NCBI RefSeq assembly: GCF_900107855.1
Contig: NZ_FNRJ01000025.1
Span: forward strand, 1 to 34,429
Reading direction: 5' to 3'
DNA from: Marinobacterium iners DSM 11526
GTDB lineage: Bacteria; Pseudomonadota; Gammaproteobacteria; Pseudomonadales; Balneatricaceae
Length of the DNA: 34,429 nt
The notes beneath the pieces are model-generated. The model ran no database searches and was not told where the DNA came from. It saw only the letters and a program-made list of their open reading frames with translations. Each line of letters opens with the position of its first letter. Positions within the stretch are counted from its first letter, which is position 1. A program made the translations under genes and the position numbers. Of this stretch, positions 13,894 through 32,236 are shown piece after piece.

Positions 13894-13928
13894 ACGAAGG
13901 GGCGTCACGTAGTGTGACGCCCCTTCGT
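13894..13928. terminator. Bidirectional hairpin terminator between the LLM gene and cynS
   Basis: A perfect 15-bp stem (ACGAAGGGGCGTCAC / GTGACGCCCCTTCGT) with a 5-base loop GTAGT sits in the 74-base gap between two convergent genes. T runs are short on both sides, so termination strength is uncertain, but placement and stability fit. Confidence 0.75.
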
Positions 13929-13940: not shown

Positions 13941-14390
13941 TCAATATGACTTGTACGGCAGGAACTTGCCGGACAGCACCACGTTGACGCGGTCTCCGTT
14001 GGGGTTTTCTTCACGCTGGATATCCATGGAGAAATCGATGGCGCTCATGATGCCGTCACCGAACTCCTCATGGATCAGCTCCTTGATGGTGCTGCCGTAG
14101 ACACTGACCACTTCATACCAACGATAGATCAGCGGATCGGTGGGCACGGCACTGGGCAGTGATCCCTTGTAGGGCACAACTTGCAGCCAGGCAATGGCCT
14201 CATCCGACAAACCAAATATTTCGCCAACCGTTTCAGCCTGCTGCTTGTTGAACGTCATCTGGCCCAGACAGCCTGCAGTCGTCCACTCCTTCGACAGTCC
14301 GATGGCATCAGCCACCTGTTTCCACTGAATGCCCTTACTCACCTTGGCGGCGAGGATCATCTGAGTTACTTCTTCACGGGTACTGATCAT
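13941..14390 (-). CDS. cynS: Cyanate hydratase (cyanase)
   Basis: 149 residues from the ATG at 14390 (MISTREEV); 22 upstream in-frame codons are rejected as non-homologous. CynS converts cyanate and bicarbonate to carbamate and CO2, and the carbamate decays to NH3 and CO2. Catalytic Arg90, Glu93 and Ser116 are present in PLIYRWYEVVSVYG and FGDGIMSAIDF, with the family N-terminal helical domain before them. It is the last gene of an operon with the rubredoxin-reductase gene (34-base gap), not next to a cynR or carbonic-anhydrase gene. This makes its job here most likely the removal of cyanate produced by the upstream enzymes. Confidence 0.96.
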   Translation of the reverse strand: MISTREEVTQMILAAKVSKGIQWKQVADAIGLSKEWTTAGCLGQMTFNKQQAETVGEIFGLSDEAIAWLQVVPYKGSLPSAVPTDPLIYRWYEVVSVYGSTIKELIHEEFGDGIMSAIDFSMDIQREENPNGDRVNVVLSGKFLPYKSY

Positions 14391-14424
14391 GATGTTCACC
14401 TTCGTATGGACGATAACGTTGTGT

Positions 14425-15780
14425 TCAGGCCGCTCGACTGTGCCGAGGCTGACCAATATTCAGTGTGGCGACGACTTCCTCTCCCATGCGCTGCTGCATG
14501 ATCATGCTGTCGTCACTTTTGTGGCTGATCTCCCAGTGCCCATCGGGCTGCGGTACGCCGTGCAATACCAGAGGCAAGGCTCGGGTCTTGAGCCGAATTA
14601 CGGGCATCTTGTGCTGATAGGACGAGGGCTCCCGCCCAAGTACCGCGGCTGCCACTGCGCGCGCCTGGTGCTGAATCGGCTCAATGAAGCGGCAGGGTTG
14701 ACCATCCAGGCTGATGCAGTCGCCCAATCCATAGATGAACGCATCACTGCTGCGCATGTTTTCATCCACCACAATCCCTGCGTTGAACGCCAATCCAGCC
14801 TGACGCGCAAGGCGGCTGTCGGTTTTCAATCCCGTCGCGGCAATCACCTGATCGACTTCCAGCGTTTCTCCACTCTCAAGTCGGATCTGTTTGCGGCCGT
14901 TTTCAGCACAGACATCGGCAATCTGACTCGAGGGCCGATAGATCACGCCCTGTGCCGCAAGACTGTCTTGCAATGCTTCACCCGCTTCGGGCGGAATCAG
15001 TCCGGTCAGCGGCAGAGGCTGACGGTCCAGCAACGTGACCCGATGCCCGGCTCGGGTGAGGTCTTCTGCCAGTTCACAGCCCACCATGCCGGCTCCGACG
15101 ATGGCAACCTGCTGCGGTCCGATGGCCAGCTGCTGCTGCAGTCCACTCCATCCTGCCAGGTCGTTGACACGCCAGCAGAGAGAGGCCGGCAGTTCATCAG
15201 GCAAGGCGGGCCTGGCACCCTGAGCCAGTACCAGATGGCTATAGGTCAGAGTGCCACGTGTGGTACGCAGCTCCCGCCGCGTCGCACTGATGCCAACGAC
15301 AAAAGTCTCGCTGAGCAAGCGCACGCCCAAACGACAGGCAGCATCCACTGCGGTTTCCTTGATCAGCGCTTCGGTTTGCAGGCCACGGCTGAGCGCCACT
15401 GAAAGCTCCGGCTTGTGATAGCGATTGGCGCTGCAGGCACTGACCATAGTGATCGGCGTCTCCCCATCCAAACTGCGAATCGCTTCAACAACGGACCAGC
15501 CTGCAATACCGCCACCCACAACAACAATCCCGGGGCGATTGTTACTAACTGCACCAACCGGCGCAGCAGCCGTTACCACCTGAGCCTCCAGCAGCTCGAA
15601 ATCGGTTTTGGTCACGCCGCACAGCGGGCATTCCCAGTCATCGGGTATATCTTCAAAGCGGGTACCCGGTGCCAGCCCACTGTCCGGATCACCCAGCTCT
15701 TCATCGTAAATCAGGCCACAGGCCAGGCAGATATACTGCTGCCAGAGGCGCTCTTCGGGGTTGAATACATCTGTGCTCAT
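14425..15780 (-). CDS. Rubredoxin-rubredoxin reductase fusion (FAD/NAD oxidoreductase)
   Basis: 451 residues. Residues 15-62 form a rubredoxin with four Fe-binding Cys (18, 21, 51, 54: CLACG and CPLCG). From about 84 on is a pyridine nucleotide-disulfide oxidoreductase domain with FAD motif [12 protein letters not shown] motif [10 protein letters not shown] and second FAD motif FIYGLGDC. It would pass electrons from NAD(P)H through FAD to its own rubredoxin and on to an oxygenase or peroxide-type acceptor. Alkane systems use the same partners as separate or fused proteins, but no AlkB is present. It overlaps the acyl-CoA-dehydrogenase-like gene by four bases, so it is probably its electron-transfer partner (inference). 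Confidence 0.92.
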
Positions 15781-16916
15781 GCCGGCACCTCCTCCTGCAT
15801 CAACTTGGCCATCTCCCAGCGCAGATGCTTGATAGCCGGAGTGACGATGGCCACAAAATGCGCTTCCCGGATGCGTCGCTGCGGCGCAGAGTTCATCAGA
15901 TAGCCACGGGCCCCCTGATGCAGAAGAGCTGACTGTGACGCCTTCAGTGACAGCTCTGCGCCGTGTGCTCGCAGTTCCAACACATCAAGCAGATAATCCT
16001 TGCTGCCATCGAAGGGGGTTTGAGCCAGTACGCCGGCGCGAGCGGCCACTTCATCGAACTCGGCCTGCAGCTCATCCGGACGGTTGTGCAGGTACTGATT
16101 GACGTGACCCAGTTGATTTTCCACATCTCGAATGGAGTCGATGGACCCTTGAATCACACCGGCGGCAATACCAACCTGCAGCAGAACAAATGCCGCTCGG
16201 ATACGCTGGATAAACGGCCTTGCCGGATCAGCGATGATTTGGTCTTCGCTGACAAAGTAGTTATCCAGAGGTACGGCCCAGGTGCTGGTGCCCTCCATGC
16301 CGGAAAACTCCGGGCAGGGCCTTAACGGCACCCGCTCATCAATATCCAGCAGGAACATCACTTCATGTGAACGACTGCCATCGGCACGATCAACAGCAGC
16401 AATGGCACCACAATACTGTCCCTGGCCGATATGACTGACCCAAGGCAACGTGCCACTCACGCTGTAGCCACCCGGCACCTTTTTCGCCTTAAGCGCCATT
16501 TTTTCGATGCCGGTCAGCGCTTTCATCGGGTTGGAGAGCCCGGTACCGCCGAATGTGCGGCCTGCAACATGATCGTCCAGACGCGCCAGCAGTGCCGGAT
16601 TGCCGGACTGCTCCATGTACAGGCCGCAGACATCATGGCACCAGGTCATGAAGCCGGTGGAACCACAGTGGCGACTGACTTCCTGCATGGTGGCAAGCGC
16701 AAGACCAAAGCGACCGCCATGCTGATTCAGATGCGCGGCAAAGGCTCCTGCCTGACCGAGGTCTGCCATGATGTCGGTCGGGTAATAACCCTCATGGTCG
16801 ATACGGTAGGCGGCGGGAGCCAGCTGTTCCCGAGCGACTTTGGCTACATCAGCCAGCACCTGGGCATCATCGGCCCAAGGGGTGAAAAGCGGGGTGGATA
16901 CGGCGACGTTATTCAT
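15777..16916 (-). CDS. Acyl-CoA dehydrogenase-like flavoprotein (possible monooxygenase)
   Basis: 379 residues. It has the acyl-CoA dehydrogenase fold order: N-terminal helical domain, middle beta domain with GGTGLSNPM and [14 protein letters not shown] (in place of the usual TEP-G-GSD and LNG-K-WITN), and C-terminal helical domain with GARGYL. The motifs are divergent, as in SfnB/DszC-type flavin-dependent members that oxygenate non-CoA substrates. No beta-oxidation neighbours are present. AGGAGAGG precedes the ATG at 16916. Operon position between the OsmC-like gene and the rubredoxin reductase suggests an oxidation yielding a cyanate precursor (inference). A genuine dehydrogenase role cannot be excluded. 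Confidence 0.85.
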
Positions 16917-16944
16917 GGCATTCCTCTCCTGTCAGGTATTGGGC

Positions 16945-17499
16945 TCAGTCCATCAAGCTGATGCTGAACGGGATCGGGGTGCGCATGGTGTTGGCGACCG
17001 GAGAGAAGTAGTTCGCATGCTGCACAATCTCATCCAGCTGCTCACGTGTGGCGTCGCCCTCGACCAGAACCTTGACGCGAATTTCCTGGAAGCCCATCTG
17101 CTCAGGCTTCATTTCTGCACCACCCGCCCCCCAGGCGGCAGGGTTGCCGATATCCCCTTCCATGAATATTTCCAGCTTGCTGAGCTTGACCTGCTTCCAG
17201 GTAGCCACGGCCGTGATCCCCACCGCGAGGCAGCCCCCGAGACCCGACAGTACGATTTCACCCGGTGCCGGCGCGGTATCTTCCCCGAACAGGTGCAGCG
17301 GCTCGTCCACAACCACTTCGTGCTGATTGACATGGCTGATGGTGCGATACTGCCCATCGGTAACGGTATGGACCTTGTTGGTACCGCGCGTACCGGGGTT
17401 GTTGCGTCCCTTTTCCGCAAACGCTATCAGGCCATCTCGATCAATCGGGCGCAGGTAGGTAGTAACGGTTTCAGCCTTGGTTGCTGTTGCAGTTGTCAT
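16945..17499 (-). CDS. OsmC-family protein lacking the second redox Cys
   Basis: 184 residues from the second ATG (17499), which has GGAG at about 8 bases; an ATG two codons upstream (17505) is too close to that site. OsmC/Ohr fold with the helix Cys in LSGLGGC (Cys90). In OsmC and Ohr the partner Cys lies in a CPV motif; here the equivalent reads NYFSPVANT with Ser166. Only one Cys is present in the whole protein, so a normal two-Cys peroxidase cycle looks impossible. First gene of the sigma-54 operon. Its role may be binding or hydrolysing an intermediate rather than peroxide defence. Confidence 0.88.
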   Translation of the reverse strand: MTTATATKAETVTTYLRPIDRDGLIAFAEKGRNNPGTRGTNKVHTVTDGQYRTISHVNQHEVVVDEPLHLFGEDTAPAPGEIVLSGLGGCLAVGITAVATWKQVKLSKLEIFMEGDIGNPAAWGAGGAEMKPEQMGFQEIRVKVLVEGDATREQLDEIVQHANYFSPVANTMRTPIPFSISLMD

Positions 17500-17570
17500 T
17501 GGCATATCTCCAGTCGTTTTGATGACACTGTTCAGTCCGGATCGGACGTTTCCAGTGGCTTGTCATATAC

Positions 17571-17589
17571 AAAGCAGGAGCCGTGCCAA
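17571..17589 (-). promoter_or_regulatory. Sigma-54 (-24/-12) promoter of the osmC-like...cynS operon
   Basis: On the minus strand TTGGCACG-GCTCC-TGCTT fits the consensus TTGGCACG-N4-TTGC, with the invariant GG-N10-GC. It lies about 75-90 bases upstream of the OsmC-like start, so transcription would begin near 17562. The AT-rich stretch 17590-17660 between promoter and upstream sites would favour DNA bending. Confidence 0.8.
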
Positions 17590-17670
17590 TATTGAAAAAT
17601 AATTATTTTTACTTATGCAACAACAACTTAAACAAATAACGATGTAACTTTAGAAAATAGCGCTACGAAG

Positions 17671-17711
17671 TGTCAGACATTGTCAGCATTACATTGTCTG
17701 ACAATGTCTGA
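17671..17711. promoter_or_regulatory. Upstream activator sites (ACATTGT-N3-ACAATGT) for the sigma-54 operon
   Basis: Perfect palindrome ACATTGT-CTG-ACAATGT at 17691-17707, plus the half-site-rich CATTGTCAG at 17678-17686. The palindrome centre lies about 137 bases upstream of the predicted start site. The identical 17-bp architecture occurs upstream of the ABC importer (22525-22541). The NifA-like activator gene ends at 17718, right beside it. Confidence 0.75.
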
Positions 17712-17717
17712 CCCTGA

Positions 17718-19385
17718 TCAGAGACTGTCCGTAAGGGACAGCTTTTCCAGGCGATAGCGAAACTGGCGTGCCGTCATTCCCAGCAGGGCGGCCGCGCGCG
17801 TTTTGTTGCCACCGGTTTGCTGCAGGGCTTCCAGCAATGTCTGTTCCTCATCCTCCCGTACCCAGCTGTAGGGACGAGCGCTGGACTGAATGGAGCCTGC
17901 GGAGCTGACCGGGACGATCGTTGCGGCGGATTCAGGCGGTGGTAACGGGGATGGCTGAGCAAGGGCCGACTGGCCGGCTTCAAGATGACTGTTGATCACC
18001 GACTCCTGGCGCAGAATGCTTTCGATGTCACCAATGGTGATATTACCGTCCAGTGCAATCAGTACCGCTCGCTTGATCACGTTCTCCAGCTGCCGAATAT
18101 TACCCGGCCAGTTGTAGCTCTCCAGCCGTTCCATTACCCCCTTGCCAAACAACGTGTAGCGCCCGTACTCGCGGTTGGCGTTAAGCAGGAAATGACGCGC
18201 CAAAATGCGTACGTCACCGGTACGCTCGCGCAAGGGCGGCAAATGTATGGGAAACACGTTGAGACGGTAGAACAGGTCCAGCCGGAAGGTACCTCGATTC
18301 ACGGCTTCCTGCAGGTTCTTGTGTGTTGCCGTGACAATGCGAACATCCACAGGAATATCGCGGATGCCACCGACACGTTGAATCAACTGACTTTCAAGCA
18401 CACGCAGCAGCTTGGACTGCAGCTCCATATTGAGATCACCGATCTCATCCAGAAACAGGGTTCCCCCATTGGCCAGTTCGATCTTGCCCTGCTTGCTGGA
18501 CGTTGCACCGGTAAAGGCACCCTTTTCATGACCGAAAAGCTCCGACTCAAGCAGTTGCTCGGGAATCGCGGCACAGTTGATGGCCAGAAAGGGCAGATCT
18601 CGCCGTTTGCTGTTCAGATGAAGAATCTGCGAGAAGCGCTCCTTCCCCGTGCCCGACTCCCCTGTCAGCAGAACGGTAACCGGTGTGTCCGCCACACGGG
18701 TAATCTGCAGCAATGCATCCCGTACGGCGGCACTCTCCCCCAGAATGCCGTAGTTGTTCTGTTGTTGCTCCAGCGCCTCCTTCAGCTCCTGGTTTTCTTC
18801 ACGCAGGTGACTGGTACGCTCATCGATCAGGCCATTGATCTTGATGATTTGAGCGATGAACGTCGCCAGAATGCGCAAAATAACCAAGTCAGCGTTTATC
18901 GCACGGGGCCTCATGCGGAGCCGGTGAGCGGCCAGAACGCCAACGGTTAGATTGCCATCCATGATCGGGACGGCGAGATAGGACACCACGCCTTCAGGCA
19001 AGGTGGCTCGGTCAACGGCGCGGAACAGAAAACCCGGTTCCTGGTCCACATCCTGTACCACCACCTGTTGACCACTTTGCATCACCTTGCCGGTAATACC
19101 TTCTTCAAAGCTGTACAGACCTCGCTTTCGTTCCGCCTCGGTCAGGCCATAGCTGTAACGGATGCGCAACAGTCCGTCCGCGGTGGATGGCAGCAATACT
19201 CGCCCCCGGTTAAGCCCCAACATCTGGGACATCAACCTAAGGGTTCCGGTTATGGCAATCTCCGGGGTGCCCGAATGGCCGATCAGCTTGGCTGCCTCAT
19301 GCAGTACCGTGAGGTCGGCCGCACCACGATCATTGGCACTGGCTGCATTCATGGGGGAAGTCAGTTCCTTGTCCATGTCAGTCAT
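17718..19385 (-). CDS. Sigma-54-dependent activator, NifA-like (GAF-AAA+-Fis HTH)
   Basis: 555 residues. GAF-like sensor domain at about 25-185, coiled linker about 190-215, AAA+ domain with Walker A GESGTGKE (242-249), sigma-54 contact loop GAFTGA (289-294), Walker B GGTLFLDE (307-314), then a Pro-rich linker and a Fis-type HTH (about 515-550, [25 protein letters not shown]). The end of the HTH is close to NifA (RQ-x-YR-hh; h, hydrophobic). AGGAG lies only one base before the ATG at 19385 but about ten before the next ATG (19376), so the true start may be 19376. It lies between two operons carrying sigma-54 promoters and a shared palindrome, its predicted targets. The GAF ligand is unknown. 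Confidence 0.94.
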
Positions 19386-19414
19386 GCTCCTGTATGGAAA
19401 CGCGATACAACGAC

Positions 19415-19447
19415 AAAAGCCCGCTCAGAAAGCAGGCCATTGCGGGC
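19415..19447 (-). terminator. Candidate terminator after the ABC permease gene
   Basis: On the minus strand GCCCGC...GCGGGC (19447-19419, 17-base loop) is followed by TTTT. It lies 17 bases after the permease stop codon and before the activator gene, so the activator is either expressed by read-through or from a promoter in the remaining 30 bases. Confidence 0.55.
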
Positions 19448-19463
19448 GAAGATGAGACAGTGT

Positions 19464-20297
19464 CTACTCGACATGCCAGTTGAAGCGCTTGATCAACACG
19501 CTGCAGATCGTGTCCAGTCCGTAACCGATCACCCCAATCACGATCACGATTGCAGCCAGGGTGTCATAGGCCAGCGTGTCACGGGCATCATTGATGGCGT
19601 ACCCCAAACCACTGGTGACCCCCAGATACTCGGCCGGGACCAGCACAACCCAGGCAACACCTACCGCCAGACGAATACCGGCCATGACATCGGTCATGAT
19701 CGCGGGCAGGATGATCCGACGCAGCATCTGCGGGCCTGATGCTCCCAGATTCTTGGCCACCTTGAACCAGTTCGGATCGATGCGTCGCACACCATGAGCA
19801 GTGGAGAACATGATTGGCCAGACGGTGGCCATCACGATCAGGAAGATGATCGCCGCATCCCAGCTGGCAAATGCCAGTACCGCGATTGGCATCCACGCCA
19901 GCGGGCTGATCATGCGCAGGAACTGGAACGGCACGTTGGCAATCTTCATGGCCGTACCGATGTAACCAATCAGAACACCCACCGGCACGCCAATGATGAC
20001 ACCCCAGAACAGGCCCACCAGCACGCGGTACAGGCTCGATAGAATCGTTGGCCAGATGGACCCACTGGCGACCAGATCATAAAGCGCATGGAAAGTGGGG
20101 GCCGGAGCGAAGTTTGCAAACGCCCACATGTCTGGATCATTGGCAACGATATAGCCACCGGCCCACCACACGGCCAGCAACGTTGTGATGCCAATGGCGG
20201 GGTAACGCAGTCGAGCCAGCCAGCACAGCAATGGCATAAAGCCATTGCTGGAACTGCTCATGCTCTGCAGGGCATGGGAACTCTGGGTACTACTCAT
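19464..20297 (-). CDS. ABC importer permease, nitrate/sulfonate/taurine (NrtB/SsuC) type
   Basis: 277 residues with six or so membrane helices and a BPD_transp_1 domain. The ATPase-coupling EAA-like loop is VAKNLGASGPQMLRRIILPAIM (about 180-201). It overlaps the binding-protein gene by four bases (20294-20297), indicating coupling. With the adjacent binding protein and ATPase it makes a complete NitT/TauT-class importer. Confidence 0.92.
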   Translation of the reverse strand: MSSTQSSHALQSMSSSSNGFMPLLCWLARLRYPAIGITTLLAVWWAGGYIVANDPDMWAFANFAPAPTFHALYDLVASGSIWPTILSSLYRVLVGLFWGVIIGVPVGVLIGYIGTAMKIANVPFQFLRMISPLAWMPIAVLAFASWDAAIIFLIVMATVWPIMFSTAHGVRRIDPNWFKVAKNLGASGPQMLRRIILPAIMTDVMAGIRLAVGVAWVVLVPAEYLGVTSGLGYAINDARDTLAYDTLAAIVIVIGVIGYGLDTICSVLIKRFNWHVE

Positions 20298-21556
20298 AGC
20301 TTGATCACCTCTTCACGCTCAAACGGGTTGTCGGCGTTGAAGCCCGGTCCCTGCTGCCAGCCGGTATGTTTTTCCATGGCTGCCTTTACGAAGCGATAAT
20401 CGACCAAGTCTTCTGCCACGAAATCCGCGTCCAGCTTCTGCAGGAAGGTGGTATCGCCGCCTACAAGAGTATTTTTCAATTCATTCACGATCAGTTTGGT
20501 CGCTGAAGGATAGGGCCAGGGCTGGAAGTCGATGCGGCCGCTGCCCCAGCCCGGATTCTGAATCGCATCAGGCGTTGCATAGCTGTCTTCGTCATACAGC
20601 GTCATGGCTCGTTCAATGATGTCCGCTTTCATCGGCAGGTAGCCCCTGCCATCCTTGGACAGCATGTGAGCAACCTCTTTCTTGTTCTGTTGTGCATAAA
20701 TCTGGGCGCGGACGATGGCGTTCATCACCTTCTGGCTCCACTCCGGATTGGCATTGATCTGATTTTCGTTCATGCAGACCACACAGCAGGGATGGTTTTT
20801 CCACATGTCACCGGTGAAGCGCAACATCTTGCCACCGGCCAGCATTTCGCCTACTGCATTGAAGGGCTCGGCCACAATGAACGCGTCGATCTTGCGTGCA
20901 GCCAGTGCCGGCGGCATGTCCGGGGGTGGCATAATCTGCAGGTTGACCTCATTTGCGGCCAGCGGCTCACCCTGAGACTTGATAACAGGTGTCAGCCCGG
21001 CATGACGCAACCCCATCTGCAGCACGATATTGTGCATGGAGTACCAGTACGGAACGGCAACCTGCTTGCCGCCGAGATCGGCAAAACTTTCAACACCGGT
21101 GTGGCGCCCCACCACCAGTCCGGAGCCATTCAGGTGAGCCCAGGACATGATCTTGACCGGAAAACCGTTGTTGTAACGCATCCAGATGGGAATGGGCTTG
21201 AGCAAATGCACCAGATTGAATTTGGCAGCGGCAAAGCCCTCCACCAGTGGCGACCAGCCGCGCATCAACACAGGGGGCTCGGTTTTCAGGCCCTCATCCT
21301 CAAAATACCCCATGGCATGCGCCACCAGCAGGACTGTCGCGTCGGTAATGGGCAGATAGCCGATGCGAACCACCTCATCCGCCGGTGGCTGGATGCTGCC
21401 CCAGGCCGCGCCGCTGGCTGCAAGGCCAAAGGTGGCTGCCAGGCCACCAACGGCAAGGCTATCGAGCATGAAGTCACGGCGGCTCATCTCATGTTCCTGC
21501 AGATATTCCAGTTCCGACGTGGAGATCGGGCCAAGTTCACTGTTGTGTTTTTTCAT
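20294..21556 (-). CDS. ABC importer binding protein, NrtA/CmpA-like, Tat-exported
   Basis: 420 residues. A long N-terminal region leads to a twin-arginine motif (SRRDFM, residues 25-30) and a hydrophobic stretch, so it is probably folded before export or held at the membrane. The mature part matches the NMT1/THI5-like NrtA group (VRIGYLPITDATVLLVAHAMGYFEDEGL; GKQVAVPYWYSMHNIVLQ; DAFIVAEPFNAVGEM; HPCCVVCMNE). Family ligands include nitrate, bicarbonate, cyanate, taurine, sulfonates and pyrimidines. GAGGAC supports the ATG at 21556. The co-regulated cyanase makes cyanate or a cyanate-yielding compound a reasonable but unproven ligand. Confidence 0.9.
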   Translation of the reverse strand: MKKHNSELGPISTSELEYLQEHEMSRRDFMLDSLAVGGLAATFGLAASGAAWGSIQPPADEVVRIGYLPITDATVLLVAHAMGYFEDEGLKTEPPVLMRGWSPLVEGFAAAKFNLVHLLKPIPIWMRYNNGFPVKIMSWAHLNGSGLVVGRHTGVESFADLGGKQVAVPYWYSMHNIVLQMGLRHAGLTPVIKSQGEPLAANEVNLQIMPPPDMPPALAARKIDAFIVAEPFNAVGEMLAGGKMLRFTGDMWKNHPCCVVCMNENQINANPEWSQKVMNAIVRAQIYAQQNKKEVAHMLSKDGRGYLPMKADIIERAMTLYDEDSYATPDAIQNPGWGSGRIDFQPWPYPSATKLIVNELKNTLVGGDTTFLQKLDADFVAEDLVDYRFVKAAMEKHTGWQQGPGFNADNPFEREEVIKL

Positions 21557-21590
21557 GGTTGGGTCCTCAATAGATCAGGCAGGCTGAGTA

Positions 21591-22400
21591 TTACGCCGCA
21601 TGCTCGGCGCCATTTTTACTCGGCTCGGTGTCAGACTGGCGGCCAGCTAGACCGTTATCTGTTCCTTTGAACAGATCCATCAGCTGGTCGCGCAAGGATT
21701 GAAAACCGGCGTCCATGTGACGGCGCGGCCAAGGCAGCTCTACGTTCAGCTCATCAACAACGCGACCGGGGTTCTGTGACATGATCAGCACACGGTCGGC
21801 CATGGTGATCGCTTCATCAATGTCGTGGGTGACAATCACCATGGTGATACCGCGCGCACGACAAATGGCAGGTACCTCCTCCTGCAGGGCAGTACGCGTA
21901 AACGCGTCCAGCGCCGAGAACGGTTCATCCAGCAACAGCACCTCAGGATCGGTCGCCAGCGATCGCGCCAGTGCGACCCGCTGCTGCTGGCCACCCGAAA
22001 GACTCTGTACATTGACATCTTTTTTATCGTGCAAGCCCACCATGTCGAGCAGTTCATCAACACGCTGATAGGCCTCTATCTTGCTGACACCTGCAAACAG
22101 CAGACCCAGTGCCGCATTTTCTTTCACACTCATCCACGGATAGAGGGATGCTTTCTGAAACATCATGTTCCATTTGGCACTGGGCCTTGAAACCTGATGC
22201 CCGTTGATGCGCACACAGCCTTCGGAGGGAATCAGAAGTCCCGCCAGCATGTGCAGCAGCGTGGATTTGCCACAGCCACTGCGGCCAATCAATGCGACCA
22301 TCTCGCCGGGCTCGATGCGGTTTTCGATCTCTTTCAGGGTGGGTGCCGAAGACGGCGAAAAGCGATGTGTGATGTAGTCCAGCGAAATCGTGGCGCCCAT
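21591..22400 (-). CDS. ABC importer ATPase, NrtD/SsuB/TauB type
   Basis: 269 residues. Walker A GRSGCGKST, Q-loop FQKASLYPW, signature LSGGQQQRVALARSL, Walker B VLLLDEPFSALD, switch His in VTHDIDEA. First gene of the importer operon, 34 bases before the binding-protein gene. A sigma-54 promoter starts about 26 bases before its ATG. Confidence 0.94.
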   Translation of the reverse strand: MGATISLDYITHRFSPSSAPTLKEIENRIEPGEMVALIGRSGCGKSTLLHMLAGLLIPSEGCVRINGHQVSRPSAKWNMMFQKASLYPWMSVKENAALGLLFAGVSKIEAYQRVDELLDMVGLHDKKDVNVQSLSGGQQQRVALARSLATDPEVLLLDEPFSALDAFTRTALQEEVPAICRARGITMVIVTHDIDEAITMADRVLIMSQNPGRVVDELNVELPWPRRHMDAGFQSLRDQLMDLFKGTDNGLAGRQSDTEPSKNGAEHAA

Positions 22401-22435
22401 GGTGATGCTCCGGTCAGAGGGTGTCTAACCAGTAA

Positions 22436-22453
22436 CAGCATGTAGCGTGCCAC
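22436..22453 (-). promoter_or_regulatory. Sigma-54 promoter of the ABC importer operon
   Basis: On the minus strand GTGGCACG-CTACA-TGCTG has the invariant GG-N10-GC and the TGGCACG core. Predicted start near 22426, about 26 bases before the ATPase ATG. An IHF-like sequence (TTTCAA-N4-TTG, 22472-22484, one mismatch) lies between it and the activator sites. Confidence 0.8.
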
Positions 22454-22510
22454 TTATTTAAAAATGTTATATTTCAATAATTTGAGATAAAAACAGGCAG
22501 TTTGTCCGCC

Positions 22511-22552
22511 ATTGTCATTTGATGACATTGTTCGACAATGTCGCATTGTCAG
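22511..22552. promoter_or_regulatory. Upstream activator sites (ACATTGT-N3-ACAATGT) for the ABC importer
   Basis: Perfect palindrome GACATTGT-TCG-ACAATGTC (22524-22542) containing the same 17-bp core as at 17691-17707. It is overlapped by TGTCAT-TTG-ATGACA (22513-22527) and flanked by CATTGTCAG (22544-22552), also present in the other site cluster. The centre is about 107 bases upstream of the importer start site and about 60 from a candidate start for the divergent deaminase gene. Confidence 0.75.
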
Positions 22553-22567
22553 CCCGCCGCACCTTAA

Positions 22568-22583
22568 TGGCACCAGCTTGGCA
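22568..22583 (+). promoter_or_regulatory. Weaker candidate sigma-54 promoter of the deaminase gene
   Basis: TGGCACC-AGCT-TGGCA has GG-N10-GC and a good -24 half, but the -12 half reads TGGC instead of TTGC. Predicted start near 22594, about 70 bases before the deaminase ATG. No convincing sigma-70 promoter is visible there (TACAAT at 22631-22636 lacks a -35). Confidence 0.4.
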
Positions 22584-22663
22584 GCAAATCCTTCTGCTAT
22601 TGATAACACGAAAAAAGACAGCTGTAGGGCTACAATGCATTCTGTGCCGCAAAAGGAGCTCAT

Positions 22664-23251
22664 ATGAACACCACGCTGTTTGACAAGGATACTGCCATCA
22701 CCGAGTCGGTTCTGAACACAATCGCGCACATGCCTACTACAAGCCTGCCTGTATTGATGGCTGACGACTTTGCACACAGGCTGTCGGACCGAGATTTTAT
22801 GCGGATCGCGGTACTGCTTGCCCATAAAGGTTATAACGAGGGTGGCTGCCCTATCGGGGCCGTCATCATCGATAACAGCACACGCTGCATTCTGGGCAAG
22901 GGGCACAATACGCTGGTACAGGAAAGCCACCCCTACAATCACGGCGAAACCTCAGCCATCCGAGATGCCGGCAGGATCGACTTCAGCCATACCACGCTGT
23001 TCACCTCGCTCAGCCCTTGCGATGTCTGTGCCACGCTGCTGTACATGCGTGGTTTCAGCCGCGTCGTCGTCGGTGACATCACCAGCGCCAGTGGCAATGA
23101 AGCTTTGCTGCGCAGCAAAGGCATTCAGGTCGACATTCTGGAAGACCTGAACGGTATCGAGCTGTATGCGCGCTTCAGAGCGGAGCAGCCACAGCTGGAG
23201 CTTGAAGACTGGCGGGGCGTTGCCGCAACAGATGCAAAGAAAGAGAACTGA
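22664..23251 (+). CDS. Cytidine/deoxycytidylate deaminase-fold enzyme, yeast cytosine-deaminase-like
   Basis: 195 residues with strong AGGAG before the ATG. Zinc site HGE (His93, Glu95 as proton shuttle) and PCDVC (Cys119, Cys122). The stretch from YNHGETSAIRDAGRID to SLSPCDVCATLLYMRGFSRVVVGD and the C-terminal ELEDWRG resemble fungal cytosine deaminase Fcy1, with a ~40-residue N-terminal extension. It would release NH3 from cytosine or a related amino-heterocycle. It is divergent from the sigma-54 importer operon and shares its activator-site region, suggesting a nitrogen-release role. Substrate uncertain: cytosine, isocytosine or another ring amine. Confidence 0.87.
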   Translation: MNTTLFDKDTAITESVLNTIAHMPTTSLPVLMADDFAHRLSDRDFMRIAVLLAHKGYNEGGCPIGAVIIDNSTRCILGKGHNTLVQESHPYNHGETSAIRDAGRIDFSHTTLFTSLSPCDVCATLLYMRGFSRVVVGDITSASGNEALLRSKGIQVDILEDLNGIELYARFRAEQPQLELEDWRGVAATDAKKEN

Positions 23252-25126: not shown

Positions 25127-25621
25127 ATGAATTCAATGCGAGAACGTGCAGCGGAAGGGCTGCAGCCGGGTGACAGCTTCAGTGTGACTCGCAGCTTTAC
25201 ACAAGAGGAAGTTGACACCTTCGCGCGCCTGTCCGGCGACTACAATCCGGTACATTTTGATCAGGCGTTTGCCGAGTTGAAGGGGTTCAGAGCCCCAGTG
25301 GCACATGGGCTGCTGACCGGTAGCCTGTTGACCGAGATTGGCGGTCAGATTGGCTGGCTGGCAGCGGGCATGAATTTCCGTTTCAGACGACCTGTTTACG
25401 TAGGCGAGGCTATTACCTGTCGCTGGACCATCAGAGAAATAGATCCGCGTGGGCGCGCCAGCGCCAGGGTCGAAATGACCAATCCGGACGGGGTGATCGT
25501 CCTGGAGGCAGAGGTCACCGGGATTGTACCCGGTGACCCAGAGCGTCAGCGGTTGCGGCAGATGCTGGCCGAAGGCGACCCGACCAACAGGTTGGCCCGC
25601 AGCCGCCAGGATCAGTCCTAG
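25127..25621 (+). CDS. MaoC-like (R)-specific enoyl-CoA hydratase
   Basis: 164 residues; GGAGGGG precedes the ATG at 25127. Hot-dog fold with the hydratase motif SGDYNPVHFD, giving the catalytic pair Asp38/His43, and APVAHGLLTGSLLTEIGG. Members such as PhaJ hydrate trans-2-enoyl-CoA to (R)-3-hydroxyacyl-CoA. About 25 residues longer at the C-terminus than PhaJ. It is single, next to an AraC gene, and convergent with the aromatic operon (12-base gap). It may act in fatty-acid or CoA-linked aromatic catabolism. Confidence 0.88.
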   Translation: MNSMRERAAEGLQPGDSFSVTRSFTQEEVDTFARLSGDYNPVHFDQAFAELKGFRAPVAHGLLTGSLLTEIGGQIGWLAAGMNFRFRRPVYVGEAITCRWTIREIDPRGRASARVEMTNPDGVIVLEAEVTGIVPGDPERQRLRQMLAEGDPTNRLARSRQDQS

Positions 25622-25633
25622 GGCTGTAAAGCC

Positions 25634-26551
25634 TTAGCTCAGTCCCTTTTGCAACAAGCGCAGACTTTCTTTAAGCGTTTGCTGCTGCTCCTCACTGAGG
25701 CAGGACATCACCTGCCGCTCGTGCTCAATCGCCTTGTCCAGCAGCTGGGTTGCCAGCTGCTGCCCTTTCTCGGTCAACCGGAAGCAGCTACCCTCCACCT
25801 GCAATAGCCCCTTGTCCTGCAGCCATTCGCCGGTAAACATCAGCTCTTTGAGTGGCTGGGAAACATAGCGGCAAATCTGCTCTTGTTCCATCGCTTCGCC
25901 ATCGGCCAGCAGCGTCAATACACGCCATTCTTCGGCGGTCACCCCAAAATGGCTCAACCTCGGATAGAAGTCAGAGGCATAGGCATTGAGTGTCTGACGC
26001 AACTGGAACAACAGGTAATCACCCAGAAATCCCCTGGCTTCCAGCGGTCCGGTCGGAGCCTGAACCGCTGGGTGGGTTTCGGGCACCGCATAACGACCGT
26101 TGTGGAACACCAGTGAGCTGACGTTTTCCTCATAAGAGTAATCGGTCACCTCGCCCACAATAATAAAGTGGTCTCCCCCCTCGTAGACGTTCCAGGTCTT
26201 GCAACCGAACCAGGCTGCCGTGCCGTGCAGCAGTGGCGAGCCGTGCTGGTCGTCGCGGGTGTGGATATCGGCAAACTTGTCCTCGCCCCGGCGCGCGAAC
26301 CGATTGGAAATTTCAATCTGGTCATTACGCAGCACATTGATGGCAAAGGATTTCCCACGGGTGAATGCCTCCAGACTCCAAGCCCCCTTGTCGATGCTCC
26401 AGAGCACCAGCGCAGGCTCGATCGACAGGGTGTTAAAGCTGCTGGCGGTCATGCCGATGGGATTACCCTCAGCATCTCGCGTGGTAATTACGGTTACGCC
26501 GGTGGGGAACTTGCCCAGCGCCCGGCGAAAATCTTTCGGATCAAATGACAT
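25634..26551 (-). CDS. Flavin reductase with C-terminal MarR-like domain (HPAH C1 type)
   Basis: 305 residues. Residues 1-165 form a flavin reductase domain (FRRALGKFPTGVTVITTRDAEGNPIGMTASSFNTLS; SKGAW-type flavin loop as DKGAWSLEAFTRG; GDHFIIVGEV). Residues about 178-300 look like a MarR winged helix (LSHFGVTAEEWRVLTLLADGEAMEQEQICRYV; LTEKGQQLATQLL). The same arrangement is known in the C1 reductase of p-hydroxyphenylacetate hydroxylase, where the MarR-like part binds the aromatic and relieves autoinhibition. It makes reduced FMN/FAD for a monooxygenase, but no group D oxygenase partner is in this operon. GGAGACAATC supports the ATG. 13 bases after xylE copy B. Confidence 0.9.
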   Translation of the reverse strand: MSFDPKDFRRALGKFPTGVTVITTRDAEGNPIGMTASSFNTLSIEPALVLWSIDKGAWSLEAFTRGKSFAINVLRNDQIEISNRFARRGEDKFADIHTRDDQHGSPLLHGTAAWFGCKTWNVYEGGDHFIIVGEVTDYSYEENVSSLVFHNGRYAVPETHPAVQAPTGPLEARGFLGDYLLFQLRQTLNAYASDFYPRLSHFGVTAEEWRVLTLLADGEAMEQEQICRYVSQPLKELMFTGEWLQDKGLLQVEGSCFRLTEKGQQLATQLLDKAIEHERQVMSCLSEEQQQTLKESLRLLQKGLS

Positions 26552-26564
26552 GATTGTCTCCGAT

Positions 26565-27488
26565 TCAGGTCAGCACGCTCAGGAAACGCTCGTTTAACTG
26601 ACGGTCGTGATAGAAAATTGCTTTACCCAGCTCGCCCGCATCCCAGGTCACCGGCTCGTGGTCCGGGTAGTGGTAGTCGCCACCGCAGAAAACCTCGTTA
26701 CGATTGCCGGAAGGGTCAAAGAAATAGATGGTCTGACCATGAGTCAGCCCATGACGTGTCGGGCCAATATCGATTGAGGTATCGGTCATGGAGATCAAGT
26801 CCGCCGCCTTGAGCACATCGTTCCAGGTCTCAAGGAAGAAGGAGGCATGGTGAAACTTGCCTGGCTCCGGATGATCGATAAACGCCACATCATGCGCCTT
26901 CATGCTGACAGTCAGGAACTGGCCGACACGCTTGCCGTCCGGTGTCATCACCTGCTCAGCCAGATCGAAGCCGAGCACATCACGGAACAGCTCTAAAGTG
27001 CGGTCCAGGTTGGGGCCGTACAGCAGGCAGTGGTCGAAACGGGTCGCCTGCATGCCTTTCAGGCCACGCGGCCAGGCTTCCGGGTTGTGATTGCCCACGC
27101 CCCACTTGCCGGTCTGCTCCTTGGTGGCAAAAAGCTCGAACGCGTGCCCGGTGGGGGCAACAAAACGGACGCGGCGTCCACAGTCTTTAAGGTCACCGGC
27201 AGGAATGTCTTCCACTTCACAGCCGAACGCAACCAGCTCAGCACGCAGGCTGTCCACAACCTCTTCGCTCAAGCACTTGAAGCCCATGAAATCCATACCG
27301 GCTTCGTCCGCTTCACGCAGCACCACCGAGAACTTGTCCACTTCGGTCCAGCCCTTGAGATAGACACGGCCCTGATCGTCACGGTCCATTTCGATCAGAC
27401 CGAGCAGGTCTACGTAGTGCTTGACGGCTTCATCCATATCCAGCACGCGAATCTGCACGTGCCCGGGACGCATTACACCTTTTTTCAT
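26565..27488 (-). CDS. xylE: Catechol 2,3-dioxygenase (XylE type), copy B
   Basis: 307 residues, identical to copy A (3422-4345) except Val194 for Ala. Fe ligands His153, His214 and Glu265 and second-sphere His199, His246 and Tyr255 are conserved. I count about 23 base differences over 924, all but one silent. Unlike copy A it is embedded in the aromatic operon, 45 bases after the dctM gene with no promoter or XylS box in that gap. It ring-cleaves the catechol made by the Rieske dioxygenase and SDR encoded upstream. Upstream and downstream sequences do not resemble those of copy A. Confidence 0.96.
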
Positions 27489-27533
27489 TGGGTTACCTCA
27501 GCTTTTATTGTTATGTCAGTTTCAGTGTGTCAT

Positions 27534-28850
27534 TTAACCCAGCGTGTTGGGCAGTAACAGTGACAGTGATGGTATCGATGCGATCAGTACCAGTCGCAGG
27601 ATGTCTGCCAACCAGAAAGGAACGACTCCACGGAAAATGGTTGAGAGTTTGACGTCCGGAACCACACCTCGCAGTACGAACACATTCATACCCACCGGTG
27701 GCGTGATCAGACTGATTTCGGTCACGACCACGACAAGAATGCCAAACCAGATCAGATCCATGCCCATGGCCTGTACCATCGGATAGAACACCGGTACGGT
27801 TAACAGGATCATCGACATGCTTTCCAGCGCACAGCCCAACAACAGGTAAATTGCAATCAGTATTACCAGCACCATAAACAGGCTGAACCCCTGCTCCACC
27901 ACCCAATCTCGCAGCATCATCGGCATGCCAGTCATGTTGATGAAATTGGAGAAAATCAGCGCACCAATCACAAGGAAAAACAGCATCGCGGTTGTCCGTG
28001 CCGCATTACTGAGTGAACGGTACATCATCTTTGCACTGAGTTTGCCGCTGAACATGGCAATCAGGAAGGCCCCTGAGGCGCCGATTCCGGCCGCTTCAGT
28101 CGGGGTAAAAATACCGGCATAAATGCCGCCCATCACAATGATGAAAATAAGGTTGATGCCCCATACCCCCTTCAGAGAGATCAGCCTCTCTTTCCAGCTG
28201 GAGCGAGCACCGGCAGGGCCACTGTCAGGCTTAAGCCTGACAGTGACAATCACTGCAACCATATAGAGCAGAATACCGATGATGCCCGGAATAAGGCCGG
28301 CAATGAACAGCTTGCCAATATCCGTTTCGGTCATCAGGCCGTATACCACCAGAATTACACTGGGGGGGATCAGAATGCCAAGACTTCCGCCGGCAGCAAT
28401 GGCACCGGTAGCAAGCCCATCTGAATACTTATATTCACGCATGGAAGGCATCGCCACTTTAGCCATGGTGGCGGATGTCGCCATGGAACTGCCACACACG
28501 GCAGAAAAGGCACCGCAGGAGACAACGGTCGCCAGTGCCAGGCCACCCTTGAAATGCCCCAGAAAAGCGTTGGCCGCACGGTAAAGCTGTTTTGACATTC
28601 CCGACTCGGTAATCAGATTGCCCATCAGCAAAAACAGCGGCACCACCGACAGGCCGTATGCCAGACCGGTATCAAAGGCGGTCGATGCCACCATATTGAG
28701 TGAGATGCTCCAGCCACGTGGGTTACCATAGGTAACCTGCTGCACAAGTGCAAAACCCACCACGCCGACAATCGCCATGGCGATGCCCAACGGCACACGG
28801 GCCAGAATCAGTACCATTAAGGCCGCAAAGCCGATCAGACTTGCTTCCAT
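27534..28850 (-). CDS. TRAP transporter large membrane subunit (DctM type)
   Basis: 438 residues with about twelve membrane helices. DctM signatures: IPPSVILVVYGLMTETDIGKLFIAGLIPG (about 180-210), EAAGIGASGAFLI, and ALESMSMILLTVPVFYPM. It is the Na+-coupled translocation subunit. Its ATG directly follows the DctQ stop (TAAATG), so translation is coupled. A 26-bp perfect palindrome lies in the codons for TVRLKPDS. Third transporter gene in the aromatic operon; substrate probably the aromatic acid degraded by the operon. Confidence 0.94.
   Translation of the reverse strand: MEASLIGFAALMVLILARVPLGIAMAIVGVVGFALVQQVTYGNPRGWSISLNMVASTAFDTGLAYGLSVVPLFLLMGNLITESGMSKQLYRAANAFLGHFKGGLALATVVSCGAFSAVCGSSMATSATMAKVAMPSMREYKYSDGLATGAIAAGGSLGILIPPSVILVVYGLMTETDIGKLFIAGLIPGIIGILLYMVAVIVTVRLKPDSGPAGARSSWKERLISLKGVWGINLIFIIVMGGIYAGIFTPTEAAGIGASGAFLIAMFSGKLSAKMMYRSLSNAARTTAMLFFLVIGALIFSNFINMTGMPMMLRDWVVEQGFSLFMVLVILIAIYLLLGCALESMSMILLTVPVFYPMVQAMGMDLIWFGILVVVVTEISLITPPVGMNVFVLRGVVPDVKLSTIFRGVVPFWLADILRLVLIASIPSLSLLLPNTLG
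28220..28245. repeat. 26-bp perfect palindrome inside dctM
   Basis: CACTGTCAGGCTT and its exact complement AAGCCTGACAGTG meet with no spacer, centred at 28232/28233. It lies in the stretch encoding a hydrophilic loop of DctM. Such a long perfect palindrome in coding sequence is unexpected. Confidence 0.9.
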
Positions 28851-29372
28851 TTACTGCTCTCCTTGTGCAAAGAGACGACTGCTGCCAAATATCAATCGAA
28901 GGACCAAAGCCAGAGTGGCAAGACCTGTGGTAATTGCCATCATGAAAGCAAGCCAGGACAGCGGAATCTGCAGTACGGCTGTAGTATCAGCGTAACGCTG
29001 CACCTTGAGAGCATGCTCCCACAGCACCCAGGTAAAGGTACCAAAGGCGAATACGTTGATTACCTCAATCAACCCATTCTGAATACGCTGCCCCCAGCCG
29101 CCGAAGAAAGAGTCCAGCAGGTCCACCGCAATGTGCCCACCTTCTGCCGTAATCAGTGGCAGTCCCAAAAAGATCACCGCCGCCAGCATCAACTCGGTCA
29201 GCTCATAGGCTCCATTCAAAGGAGACGAGAACAGATAGCGTCCCAGTACATCGATCAGTGTCACCAGCATCATCATGAACATGACGATGGCGGCCGTACC
29301 GCTGAGCAGGTGGCGGTACAACAGTACCACCACCTCTCGGCTGCCGGCTGAAGCTCTGAGAGAAGCTTTCAT
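28851..29372 (-). CDS. TRAP transporter small membrane subunit (DctQ type)
   Basis: 173 residues with four membrane helices (about 20-42, 58-80, 98-120, 138-162). It contains the DctQ pattern GRYLFSSPLNGAYELTELMLAAVIFLGLPLITAEGGHIAVDLLDSFF. It assists DctM and docks DctP. AGGTGAG precedes the ATG at 29372; 11 bases after the dctP stop. Confidence 0.93.
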   Translation of the reverse strand: MKASLRASAGSREVVVLLYRHLLSGTAAIVMFMMMLVTLIDVLGRYLFSSPLNGAYELTELMLAAVIFLGLPLITAEGGHIAVDLLDSFFGGWGQRIQNGLIEVINVFAFGTFTWVLWEHALKVQRYADTTAVLQIPLSWLAFMMAITTGLATLALVLRLIFGSSRLFAQGEQ

Positions 29373-29383
29373 CGGCTCACCTG

Positions 29384-30406
29384 TTAGTCTTTGGCCAGTT
29401 CACGGCTCAGTTCGCGGAATTCCGCCAGCGCTGCAGCACCGTCAACGCCGGCAGCTTCAGCCTGCTTCAACCACTCCTGCACCATCGGCTCGCTGGCTGT
29501 ACGAATTTCGTTCATGAACGCTTCGTCTGCGGTCAACACTTCATTGCCATTGGCCTCGATCGCTTCCAGCCCCTTGGCATCCTGGGTATCCCACATGCGA
29601 CCAGCCAAGCGTGCCAGCGTTTCACCGGACACCTTCTCGATAGCCGCCTGATCTTCCTCCGGCAGGCTTTCGAAGCGATCTTTATTCATCACGACAAAGA
29701 AGCTGAAGTTATACAGCCCACCCGGCACCAGCGTGGTGTAGGTGGTTTTGTCCTGAATATTGAACGCCGGTACGGACTCCAGCGGAAACAGAGTGCCATC
29801 AGCTACGCCGCTGGACACCATCTCGTAGGTGCTGGAAGAGGGCTGCTGCAATGACACAGCACCAAGAGCAGTGGACAGTTCATTCATGATGCCACCACCC
29901 ACGCGAAGCTTGAGGCCCTGCATGTCGGCTGCACTTTTCACACTGCGACGGCTGTTGTGGATATGACCCGGACCATGCGTGAACAGACCCAGCAATTTAA
30001 CATCCTTATGCTCGTCAGCCTTGCTCAGATACTTGTTGTATACCTGCCAGTAGGCAGCAGACGTGGCTTCCGCACTGTCACCACCGAAGGGGAACTCGAC
30101 CATTTTATAAAGACTGAAACGGCCCGGGGTGTAACCGTGTGCACTATAGGTGATATCCGCCTGGCCTTCTGCAGCCAGATCATAATGCACCCGTGGGTGA
30201 CCCAGCGCAGATGGCAGCATAACTACCTTGACACGACCTTCAGTTGCTTCTTCCACGCTATTGGCCCAGGGCACCATCACATCACGTACCAGAGGATGAC
30301 CTGACGGCAGCCAGGACGACATGGTCAGGCGCGTTTCCGCCTGCGCACCTGAAGCCAGAAGTGCGATTGTTGCAGTTGCAGCGACTCGAAACATCATCTT
30401 CTTCAT
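29384..30406 (-). CDS. TRAP transporter solute-binding protein (DctP type)
   Basis: 340 residues with a Sec signal peptide (MKKMMFRVAATATIALLASG, cleavage after AQA). DctP fold with EEATEGRVKVV, THGPGHIHN, and LKLRVGGGIMNELSTALG, where Arg is the usual ligand-carboxylate contact. Preceded by GGAG. It starts the dctPQM trio inside the aromatic operon, 88 bases after the reductase gene; that gap holds a CCGGT-TCGG-ACCGG hairpin but no T run. Homologous to the orphan DctP at 2197-3222. Confidence 0.94.
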   Translation of the reverse strand: MKKMMFRVAATATIALLASGAQAETRLTMSSWLPSGHPLVRDVMVPWANSVEEATEGRVKVVMLPSALGHPRVHYDLAAEGQADITYSAHGYTPGRFSLYKMVEFPFGGDSAEATSAAYWQVYNKYLSKADEHKDVKLLGLFTHGPGHIHNSRRSVKSAADMQGLKLRVGGGIMNELSTALGAVSLQQPSSSTYEMVSSGVADGTLFPLESVPAFNIQDKTTYTTLVPGGLYNFSFFVVMNKDRFESLPEEDQAAIEKVSGETLARLAGRMWDTQDAKGLEAIEANGNEVLTADEAFMNEIRTASEPMVQEWLKQAEAAGVDGAAALAEFRELSRELAKD

Positions 30407-30432
30407 CGTTATTCTCCGTTTCTGGTTTTAGT

Positions 30433-30460
30433 CCGGTCCGAACCGGCGTCCAACCGGAGC
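30433..30460 (-). other. Intercistronic hairpin between reductase and dctP
   Basis: The 88-base gap contains, on the minus strand, GCCGGT-TCGG-ACCGGA, a tight tetraloop hairpin without a downstream T run, together with further CCGGT repeats. It is more likely an mRNA processing or stability element than a terminator. I see no promoter in the gap. Confidence 0.4.
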
Positions 30461-30494
30461 ATAGTGCGCCGGTCGGCCTATACAGCGAACTGTT

Positions 30495-31460: not shown

Positions 31461-31469
31461 AGTCTCGCC

Positions 31470-32225
31470 TCAGCGCATGAACAGGCCGCCGTTGATGTCC
31501 AGGGTCGTACCGGTAGTGAAGTAGGCTTCCGGCCGTGCCAACTGCACCACCATTTCGCCGATAAAGTCGGCATCGCCCAATTGCCCCACCGGAATGGCGC
31601 CCAACAACGTTGGCAGGCGCTCTTCAGGTACAAGTGCCTTGACCATCGGTGACTCGATCGGTCCCGGCGCGATGGCATTTACCGTCACGCCTTGGCTGGC
31701 CAGTTCTTTGGCAAACACCTTGGTCAACGTAATGATGGCGCCCTTGGAGGCAGCATAGTGGGCACCGGTCGAGGTGCCCCCATTCTGTCCAGCCAGCGAG
31801 GCCATGTTGATGATGCGGCCATAACCCTTGTCAGCCATATGCCGACCCATCACCTGACAGCCGGAGAAAGTGCCACCGAGATTGATGTTCACCACATCGG
31901 CAAACTCTTCTGGGCTGATCTCCATCACCGGTGTCGCACGGGTGACGGCTGCGTTGTTTACCAGAACATGCAGATCACCCCAGCGCTCCAGTACAGCCGC
32001 CAGTGCAGCTTCAAAATCCGCCTTGCTGGCCACATCCAGCGCCAGCGGCATGACCCGCTCACCACTACTGTCCATGGCCGTTGCGGCAGCTTTGGCCGCT
32101 TCCAGTGAACGGTCTGACAGGGCGACTCGGTAGCCGGCGGCCAGCAGACGGGCTGCAATGTTGTTGCCAAGGCCCTGTGCTGCACCGGTGACCAGCGCAA
32201 TATGAGACTGTGTTGGGTTACTCAT
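31470..32225 (-). CDS. Short-chain dehydrogenase, probable cis-diol dehydrogenase
   Basis: 251 residues, classical SDR. Nucleotide motif TGAAQGLG (13-20), NNA (90-92), catalytic Ser143, Tyr157 and Lys161 (YAASK), and the PG motif AIAPGPIES. Located between the dioxygenase beta-subunit and reductase genes, it most likely oxidises the cis-dihydrodiol made by the dioxygenase to the catechol, with loss of CO2 if the substrate is a benzoate. AAGGAGTGG supports the ATG at 32225. Sequence alone cannot exclude other SDR roles. Confidence 0.9.
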   Translation of the reverse strand: MSNPTQSHIALVTGAAQGLGNNIAARLLAAGYRVALSDRSLEAAKAAATAMDSSGERVMPLALDVASKADFEAALAAVLERWGDLHVLVNNAAVTRATPVMEISPEEFADVVNINLGGTFSGCQVMGRHMADKGYGRIINMASLAGQNGGTSTGAHYAASKGAIITLTKVFAKELASQGVTVNAIAPGPIESPMVKALVPEERLPTLLGAIPVGQLGDADFIGEMVVQLARPEAYFTTGTTLDINGGLFMR

Positions 32226-32236
32226 GCGGCCACTCC

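Follow-up and report, generated by a model that had tools for sequence, protein, structure and literature searches.

Why does Marinobacterium iners DSM 11526 keep a cyanase gene in one operon with a thiol protein, a flavoprotein and a rubredoxin reductase, beside a sigma-54 activator and an importer of the NitT/TauT type? These genes lie on the minus strand of the window, which is the whole stretch of 34,429 bases analysed here (contig C34 of a 3.92-Mb genome). The gene set is real and is widely shared among bacteria; it is probably mobile. Judged from gene context, there is about an even chance that it is a sigma-54-controlled cluster for scavenging nitrogen from thiocyanate. The cyanase (CynS) points to cyanate, while rhodanese, dioxygenase and TauE genes which adjoin the cluster in relatives point to sulfane sulfur; thiocyanate is therefore suggested as the simplest compound giving both.

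An earlier note on this DNA had claimed a set of cynS, reductase, flavoprotein, OsmC-like, NifA-like activator and ATP-binding cassette (ABC) importer genes. All are present where it placed them, and the gene calls and coordinates in the window agree with its description. Transcription on the minus strand runs through the ABC operon (NitT/TauT type, 19464-22400), then the activator, then the OsmC-flavoprotein-reductase-cynS operon:

21591-22400, minus strand: ABC ATPase (profile matches)
20294-21556, minus strand: ABC substrate-binding protein (SBP), NMT1_2 type (profile matches)
19464-20297, minus strand: ABC permease (profile matches)
17718-19385, minus strand: NifA-like sigma-54 activator with GAF, AAA and Fis helix-turn-helix (HTH) domains (domain matches)
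16945-17505, minus strand: OsmC-like protein with a single conserved active-site cysteine, Cys92; proposed sulfur-accepting thiol partner (profile, alignment)
15777-16916, minus strand: acyl-CoA-dehydrogenase-fold flavoprotein (ACAD), proposed thiocyanate-oxidising enzyme (profile, predicted structure)
14425-15780, minus strand: rubredoxin domain fused to an NAD(P)H-type rubredoxin reductase (pyridine-nucleotide reductase; domain and profile matches)
13941-14390, minus strand: cynS, cyanase (reading frame open from 14456; probable ATG at 14390)

The ACAD and reductase genes overlap by 4 bases (15777-15780). CynS is the sole cyanase found across the genome; read from 14456 to 13941, it scores 227 bits against cyanase model NF002773 (cutoff 150) and 170 bits against TIGR00673 (cutoff 113). 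The true start is likely to be ATG 14390, because the cyanase models begin at residue 26-27. The activator has the GAF, sigma-54 AAA and Fis-type HTH domains that define the NifA-like class. It falls below the cutoff of the curated NifA model (443 bits versus 529) and does not qualify as the NifA of nitrogen fixation itself.

The comparison covers 86 related loci. These comprise 74 with ACAD from a scan of a contig collection, which relied on short peptide patterns and is not exhaustive, and 12 from a sample of 369 Gammaproteobacteria genomes. One of the 13 other ACAD genomes in the class sample, G241, was left out as its ACAD lies in two pieces on two contigs. Members of the ACAD subfamily score 147 bits or more; the next match scores 60 bits. 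OsmC precedes ACAD on the same strand in 79 of the 86 loci, with a median gap of 42 bases and 78 of the 79 gaps between -60 and 300. A CMD/AhpD-like protein fills this slot in five loci (L109, L110, L111, L115 and L116), and two (L047 and L117) are cut at the contig start; a thiol-type protein thus precedes ACAD in all 84 uncut loci. The five CMD/AhpD-like proteins are 51-59% identical to one in the same slot on a Moraxella plasmid (L148:7193-7744), which has a CxxC motif and is annotated as a member of the carboxymuconolactone decarboxylase family. The reductase is found in 77/86 loci and an activator homologue in 59/86. OsmC-ACAD occurs in Alpha-, Beta- and Gammaproteobacteria, mostly with the reductase, and without it in two Verrucomicrobiales bins (L112 and L113). 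Laboratory isolates with the cluster include Marinobacter segnicrescens, Amphritea atlantica and Pseudomonas abietaniphila. The two Verrucomicrobiales bins also have a 152-residue open reading frame between ACAD and cynS; in L112 it is a second OsmC.

The link between this module and CynS is supported across genomes. The earlier note would have given up its idea if cynS were not conserved together with the flavoprotein and OsmC genes elsewhere; the link survives the comparison. Cyanase genes are found in the stretch of 54 of the 86 loci (55 at a looser limit); 31 genomes have no cynS there, and 23 of these carry it elsewhere, some as partial matches. Among the 369 Gammaproteobacteria, cynS is present in 13 of the 14 ACAD genomes (the window's own included, and three from one family) versus 38 of the 355 others (Fisher 2e-11).

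Both minus-strand operons have sigma-54 promoter elements and a common palindrome, as the earlier note had described. The elements are scored as matches to 13 consensus letters:

17573-17589, minus strand: sigma-54 -24/-12 element of the OsmC-ACAD-reductase-cynS operon, 12 of 13 letters, TTGGCACGGCTCCTGCT
22437-22453, minus strand: sigma-54-like element of the ABC operon, 11 of 13 letters, GTGGCACGCTACATGCT
17693-17705, no strand: proposed activator site ATTGTC(N)GACAAT upstream of OsmC, perfect palindrome, ATTGTCAGACAAT
22527-22539, no strand: proposed activator site between the ABC operon and a divergent deaminase-like gene, one mismatch, ATTGTCGAACAAT

Shuffles preserving base composition only give a site as good as the one upstream of OsmC in 0/200 cases, and as good as the intergenic one in 2/200 and 0/200. 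Of 79 regions upstream of OsmC in related loci, 58 have the sigma-54 element and 40 the palindrome (shuffle p <=0.02; 41 in a first shuffle run, 40 with new shuffles). The palindrome tracks the activator: 39 of the 59 loci whose stretch includes an activator homologue have it, versus 1 of the 20 others. Although the loci are related, this recurrence of palindrome and promoter makes chance a poor explanation, and a sigma-54 regulon of the nitrogen type is supported. The exact palindrome occurs at three other places in the genome, none of which has a sigma-54-like element (at least 10/13) within 300 bases; consequently, no further members of the regulon are claimed. Two Methylobacterium loci (L087 and L089) have two sigma-54 activators each. 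The NifA-like one adjoins OsmC-ACAD-reductase and a dioxygenase-like gene; the second (PAS type in L087) is divergent from ABC genes and cynS.

The evidence for sulfur comes from relatives. Clustering of reading frames across the loci gives three families that are absent from the window's cluster; the matches described here come from one or two representatives per family. The rhodanese matches Pfam Rhodanese over the cutoff, and its best NCBIfam match, 3-mercaptopyruvate sulfurtransferase, is under the cutoff at 90 bits. An MBL-fold protein matches the dioxygenase part of the Blh sulfur transferase/dioxygenase model, which has an extra domain, at 336 bits, under the cutoff. The third family is a TauE-type exporter (Pfam TauE, over the cutoff). 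By tblastn, the persulfide-dioxygenase-like gene is found in 17 of the 86 loci, rhodanese in 16 and TauE in 8. At least one of them is present in 30/86 loci, several of which are close relatives (Amphritea, Hydrogenophaga), and lies on the ACAD strand in 30/30, versus 0/20 control cynS loci (Fisher 7e-4). The controls were picked by eye for longer contigs from 38 genomes with cynS but no ACAD.

As labelled, the taxa in which the dioxygenase-like gene accompanies the module are Amphritea, Neptuniibacter, Stutzerimonas, Pseudomonas, Zoogloea, Azoarcus, Cupriavidus, Herbaspirillum, Methylocella and Methylobacterium; single inheritance hardly explains this distribution. A Pseudosulfitobacter plasmid has consecutive genes annotated as ABC, OsmC, ACAD, sulfurtransferase and 2-hydroxychromene-2-carboxylate isomerase-like. 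The window's own genome has two dioxygenase homologues (52% identity) on other contigs; the stretches around them (L167 and L168) have no exact palindrome site. The earlier interpretation is supported in its sigma-54 regulon and in its link of the module to CynS; it missed the sulfur genes of relatives, which point to thiocyanate, and its deaminase step is not supported (see below).

The proposed route begins with import of thiocyanate by the ABC system. Electrons would pass from NADH through the rubredoxin-rubredoxin reductase to ACAD, which would oxidise the thiocyanate sulfur; the opposite, dehydrogenase direction, with electrons passing from thiocyanate to rubredoxin, may apply instead. 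The single cysteine of OsmC would then react with the oxidised S-CN species, retain the sulfur as a persulfide and free cyanate. By established cyanase enzymology, CynS would convert the cyanate to ammonium and CO2. The sulfane sulfur would be handed on and oxidised to sulfite; candidates for this are the rhodanese, persulfide-dioxygenase-like enzyme and TauE beside the cluster in relatives, and perhaps homologues elsewhere in the genome of the window. The NifA-like protein would bind ATTGTC(N)GACAAT and open the sigma-54 promoters.

The predicted ACAD structure (predicted local distance difference test, pLDDT, 89.9) has an acyl-CoA dehydrogenase fold, with a best Foldseek E of 8.5e-16. Among the 50 structural matches listed, most are acyl-CoA dehydrogenases at 14-20% identity, and 3-sulfinopropionyl-CoA desulfinase ranks sixth. 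The ACAD profile also matches DszC weakly (E 2.2e-6). DszC and other sulfur-acting enzymes share this fold; the partner here is a rubredoxin reductase, whose four rubredoxin cysteines are invariant in all 78 rows. The glutamate of the C-terminal EGT motif is the base in short-chain acyl-CoA dehydrogenases, and some members place the base elsewhere. Aligned by eye, the EGT glutamate of the closest solved chain falls at Thr359 of ACAD, with T in 82/87 rows. This substitution is not decisive against acyl-CoA dehydrogenase activity.

OsmC/Ohr thiol peroxidases typically have a second active-site cysteine. The OsmC of the window shares their Pfam OsmC domain and first cysteine, and has a serine in place of the second: Cys92 and Ser168 are each kept in 80/80 rows (79 loci and the window). 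The Geobacter OsmC-like structure 2opl also has serine at this position, so the one-cysteine type is not confined to the cluster. There are four OsmC matches in the genome; one paralogue has both cysteines and two are unmatched by the text pattern. The predicted OsmC structure is weak (mean pLDDT 69.6), and its fold matches agree with the Pfam OsmC result.

The closest described system is cynFABDS of Pseudomonas pseudoalcaligenes CECT5344, a sigma-54-dependent cyanate assimilation cluster (PMC6627978). It shares with the window a sigma-54-dependent Fis-type activator, an ABC transporter, a cyanase and a sigma-54 promoter, and is reported to be repressed by ammonium (PMC6627978). In CECT5344, cynABDS is one transcription unit, flanked by glutamate synthase and hemE, and the paper's passages on the cluster make no mention of OsmC, ACAD or rubredoxin reductase (PMC6627978). 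In the window, by contrast, the ABC and cynS operons each have a sigma-54-like element of their own and are separated by the activator gene. The window's SBP and the SBP type that adjoins cynS in other loci share about 25% identity. Control loci with a cynF-like layout (L127, L128 and L136) do not contain the OsmC-ACAD-reductase module. The earlier note knew of no described pathway with this gene set. This stands for the module, which is described in no paper found in the literature searched (most subscription journals are omitted from it), as is the combination of thiocyanate, OsmC and cyanate; the note did overlook cynFABDS (PMC6627978).

Two routes of thiocyanate degradation are described, by thiocyanate hydrolase and by copper thiocyanate dehydrogenase (PMC5328954); the latter is also predicted in Afipia (PMC8061750). 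The account of these routes cautions that a cyanase by itself is no proof of a cyanate pathway (PMC5328954). In Thioalkalivibrio, the cyanate pathway has the same overall chemistry as proposed here: thiocyanate gives cyanate and zero-valent sulfur, and cyanase follows (PMC5328954). The Thioalkalivibrio enzyme is an exported copper protein of sulfur-oxidising autotrophs; nitrogen-type control governs the candidates here, which are proteins based on flavin, rubredoxin and thiol groups. None of the cluster's genes carries an annotation as copper thiocyanate dehydrogenase, and no genome-wide search was aimed at that gene. Thiocyanate hydrolase (scnABC) presumably belongs to the nitrile-hydratase-alpha family; PF02979 has no match in the genome, and likewise matched nowhere in the controls.

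Heterotrophs that use thiocyanate as a nitrogen source, including Methylobacterium thiocyanatum, are listed in a passage that names no first-step gene (PMC5328954); Stratford 1994 is cited for a further such case (PMC6172326). The cluster would account for this physiology. A groundwater consortium in which ammonium acted as an inhibitor of thiocyanate degradation (PMC6440457) fits nitrogen control. A more specific proposal, which falls somewhat short of an even chance, is that the cluster encodes a third, flavin- and thiol-based route. Here an ACAD-fold oxidase would make a hypothiocyanite-like species, which a one-cysteine OsmC (or CMD/AhpD-like) protein would resolve to cyanate and persulfide; this would supply the first step that is missing for nitrogen-scavenging heterotrophs, and conjugative plasmids would account for part of its spread. 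If correct, the cluster is a concrete candidate for that step and could mark thiocyanate use in natural settings as well as wastewater, and OsmC-type thiol proteins may have a new role. Fuel cells in which cyanase reads were seen and thiocyanate dehydrogenase reads were not (PMC6172326) are a place to look for it in metatranscriptomes.

There are a number of observations that weigh against thiocyanate. No sulfur gene is present in the window's own cluster, nor within the analysed stretch of 56 of the 86 loci. The sulfur families and queries were taken from ACAD loci, and every control is from the Gammaproteobacteria; when the comparison is confined to the shared sample of that class, it shrinks to 3/12 versus 0/20 (p 0.044). 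The loci are related, and the Fisher values take no account of descent. In 8/86 cases cynS is found neither in the stretch nor in the genome, some of these being incomplete bins, and no reductase is seen in nine loci, one of them cut. Import is not uniform, since two unlike SBP types occur in 29/86 and 33/86 loci and none is found in 24. To our knowledge, no member of this ACAD family has been assayed. Finally, 15 Alcaligenaceae-type loci (L061-L063, L066, L067, L069, L072-L074, L076-L080 and L092) have OsmC-ACAD-reductase in a stretch that lacks the activator, cynS and any sulfur gene, and 13 of them have an Ldh2-type (sulfolactate/ureidoglycolate-type) dehydrogenase there. In this group cynS is elsewhere in the genome for 14/15, one by partial match; a sigma-54 element of at least 11/13 precedes OsmC in 11/15 and the palindrome (p <=0.02) in 0/15.

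Other substrates can be set against the same data. It is unlikely that cyanate and sulfane sulfur come from another small compound of carbon, nitrogen and sulfur, be it an organic thiocyanate, a thiocarbamate or a thiourea-type compound. The gene evidence for such a substrate is identical to that for thiocyanate, and two SBP types permit more than one substrate; free cyanate and NitT/TauT-type importers would nevertheless best suit a small inorganic anion. Oxygenation of hydrogen cyanide (HCN) to cyanate by the flavoprotein, with rhodanese serving cyanide detoxification, is quite unlikely. It would supply CynS with cyanate and account for the rhodanese in 16/86 loci; the persulfide-dioxygenase-like gene (17/86) and TauE (8/86) are left unexplained. 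So is the anion-type ABC importer, since HCN diffuses across membranes without one, and there is no nitrilase among the recurrent families annotated, which are part of all families. It is improbable that the cluster serves cyanate only, with OsmC-ACAD-reductase as a passenger that acts in stress or in some side role. In many loci, cynS has ABC genes of a second type next to it, and mutants demonstrate that cynFABDS, with its sigma-54 activator, serves cyanate (PMC6627978). Against this, the module also occurs without an adjacent cynS or transporter, and its promoter element is conserved. The 20/20 control cynS loci without OsmC and ACAD show only that cynS can do without the module, as the controls were chosen from genomes without ACAD.

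The least probable alternative by far is that of the earlier note, in which a pyrimidine- or nitrile-type nitrogenous compound is oxidised and CynS and a deaminase both release ammonium. In its favour, the palindrome in the intergenic region is common to the deaminase and the ABC operon, and a weak sigma-54-like element precedes the deaminase:

22567-22583, plus strand: weaker sigma-54-like element before the deaminase, 10 of 13 letters, ATGGCACCAGCTTGGCA
22664-23251, plus strand: cytosine-deaminase-like gene; local neighbour outside the conserved set (similarity to solved chains, conservation)

This gene is divergent from the ABC operon, and yeast cytosine deaminase is its nearest match among solved chains. 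A homologue is found in none of the 86 ACAD loci and none of five plasmid loci. Homologues of 72-74% identity occur in two near relatives in which ACAD was not found (L165:7175-7756 and L166:7299-7961). The deaminase is therefore rejected as a pathway step that liberates ammonium; judged by its distribution, it is a local neighbour and no conserved part of the set.

The cluster is accessory and has probably moved. At an E limit of 1e-40, ACAD is absent from 6/6 sampled genomes of the window's genus, and a search of 57 relatives, the window's genome among them, finds it in 3. Clusters are located on predicted-conjugative plasmids of Marinobacter shengliensis and Acetobacter ascendens. In the ACAD tree, Methylocella (Alphaproteobacteria) groups with Stutzerimonas (Gammaproteobacteria) with starred support, on a long Methylocella branch. 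The labels of L098, L074 and L080 (Akkermansia muciniphila, Bordetella parapertussis) are at odds with ACADs that lie near Comamonadaceae/Alcaligenaceae copies; these are perhaps mislabelled bins. Two Neisseria gonorrhoeae records filed as plasmids (approximately 2.17 Mb) have a 42% ACAD homologue.

One further element adjoins the operon:

13894-13928, minus strand: hairpin 3' of cynS, possible terminator (-32.8 kcal/mol, z -7.3); symmetrical, could serve both strands

The remainder of the window includes a separate catabolic-looking neighbourhood (25127-34060) with MaoC, a flavin reductase, TRAP transporter parts and a Rieske ring-hydroxylating oxygenase.

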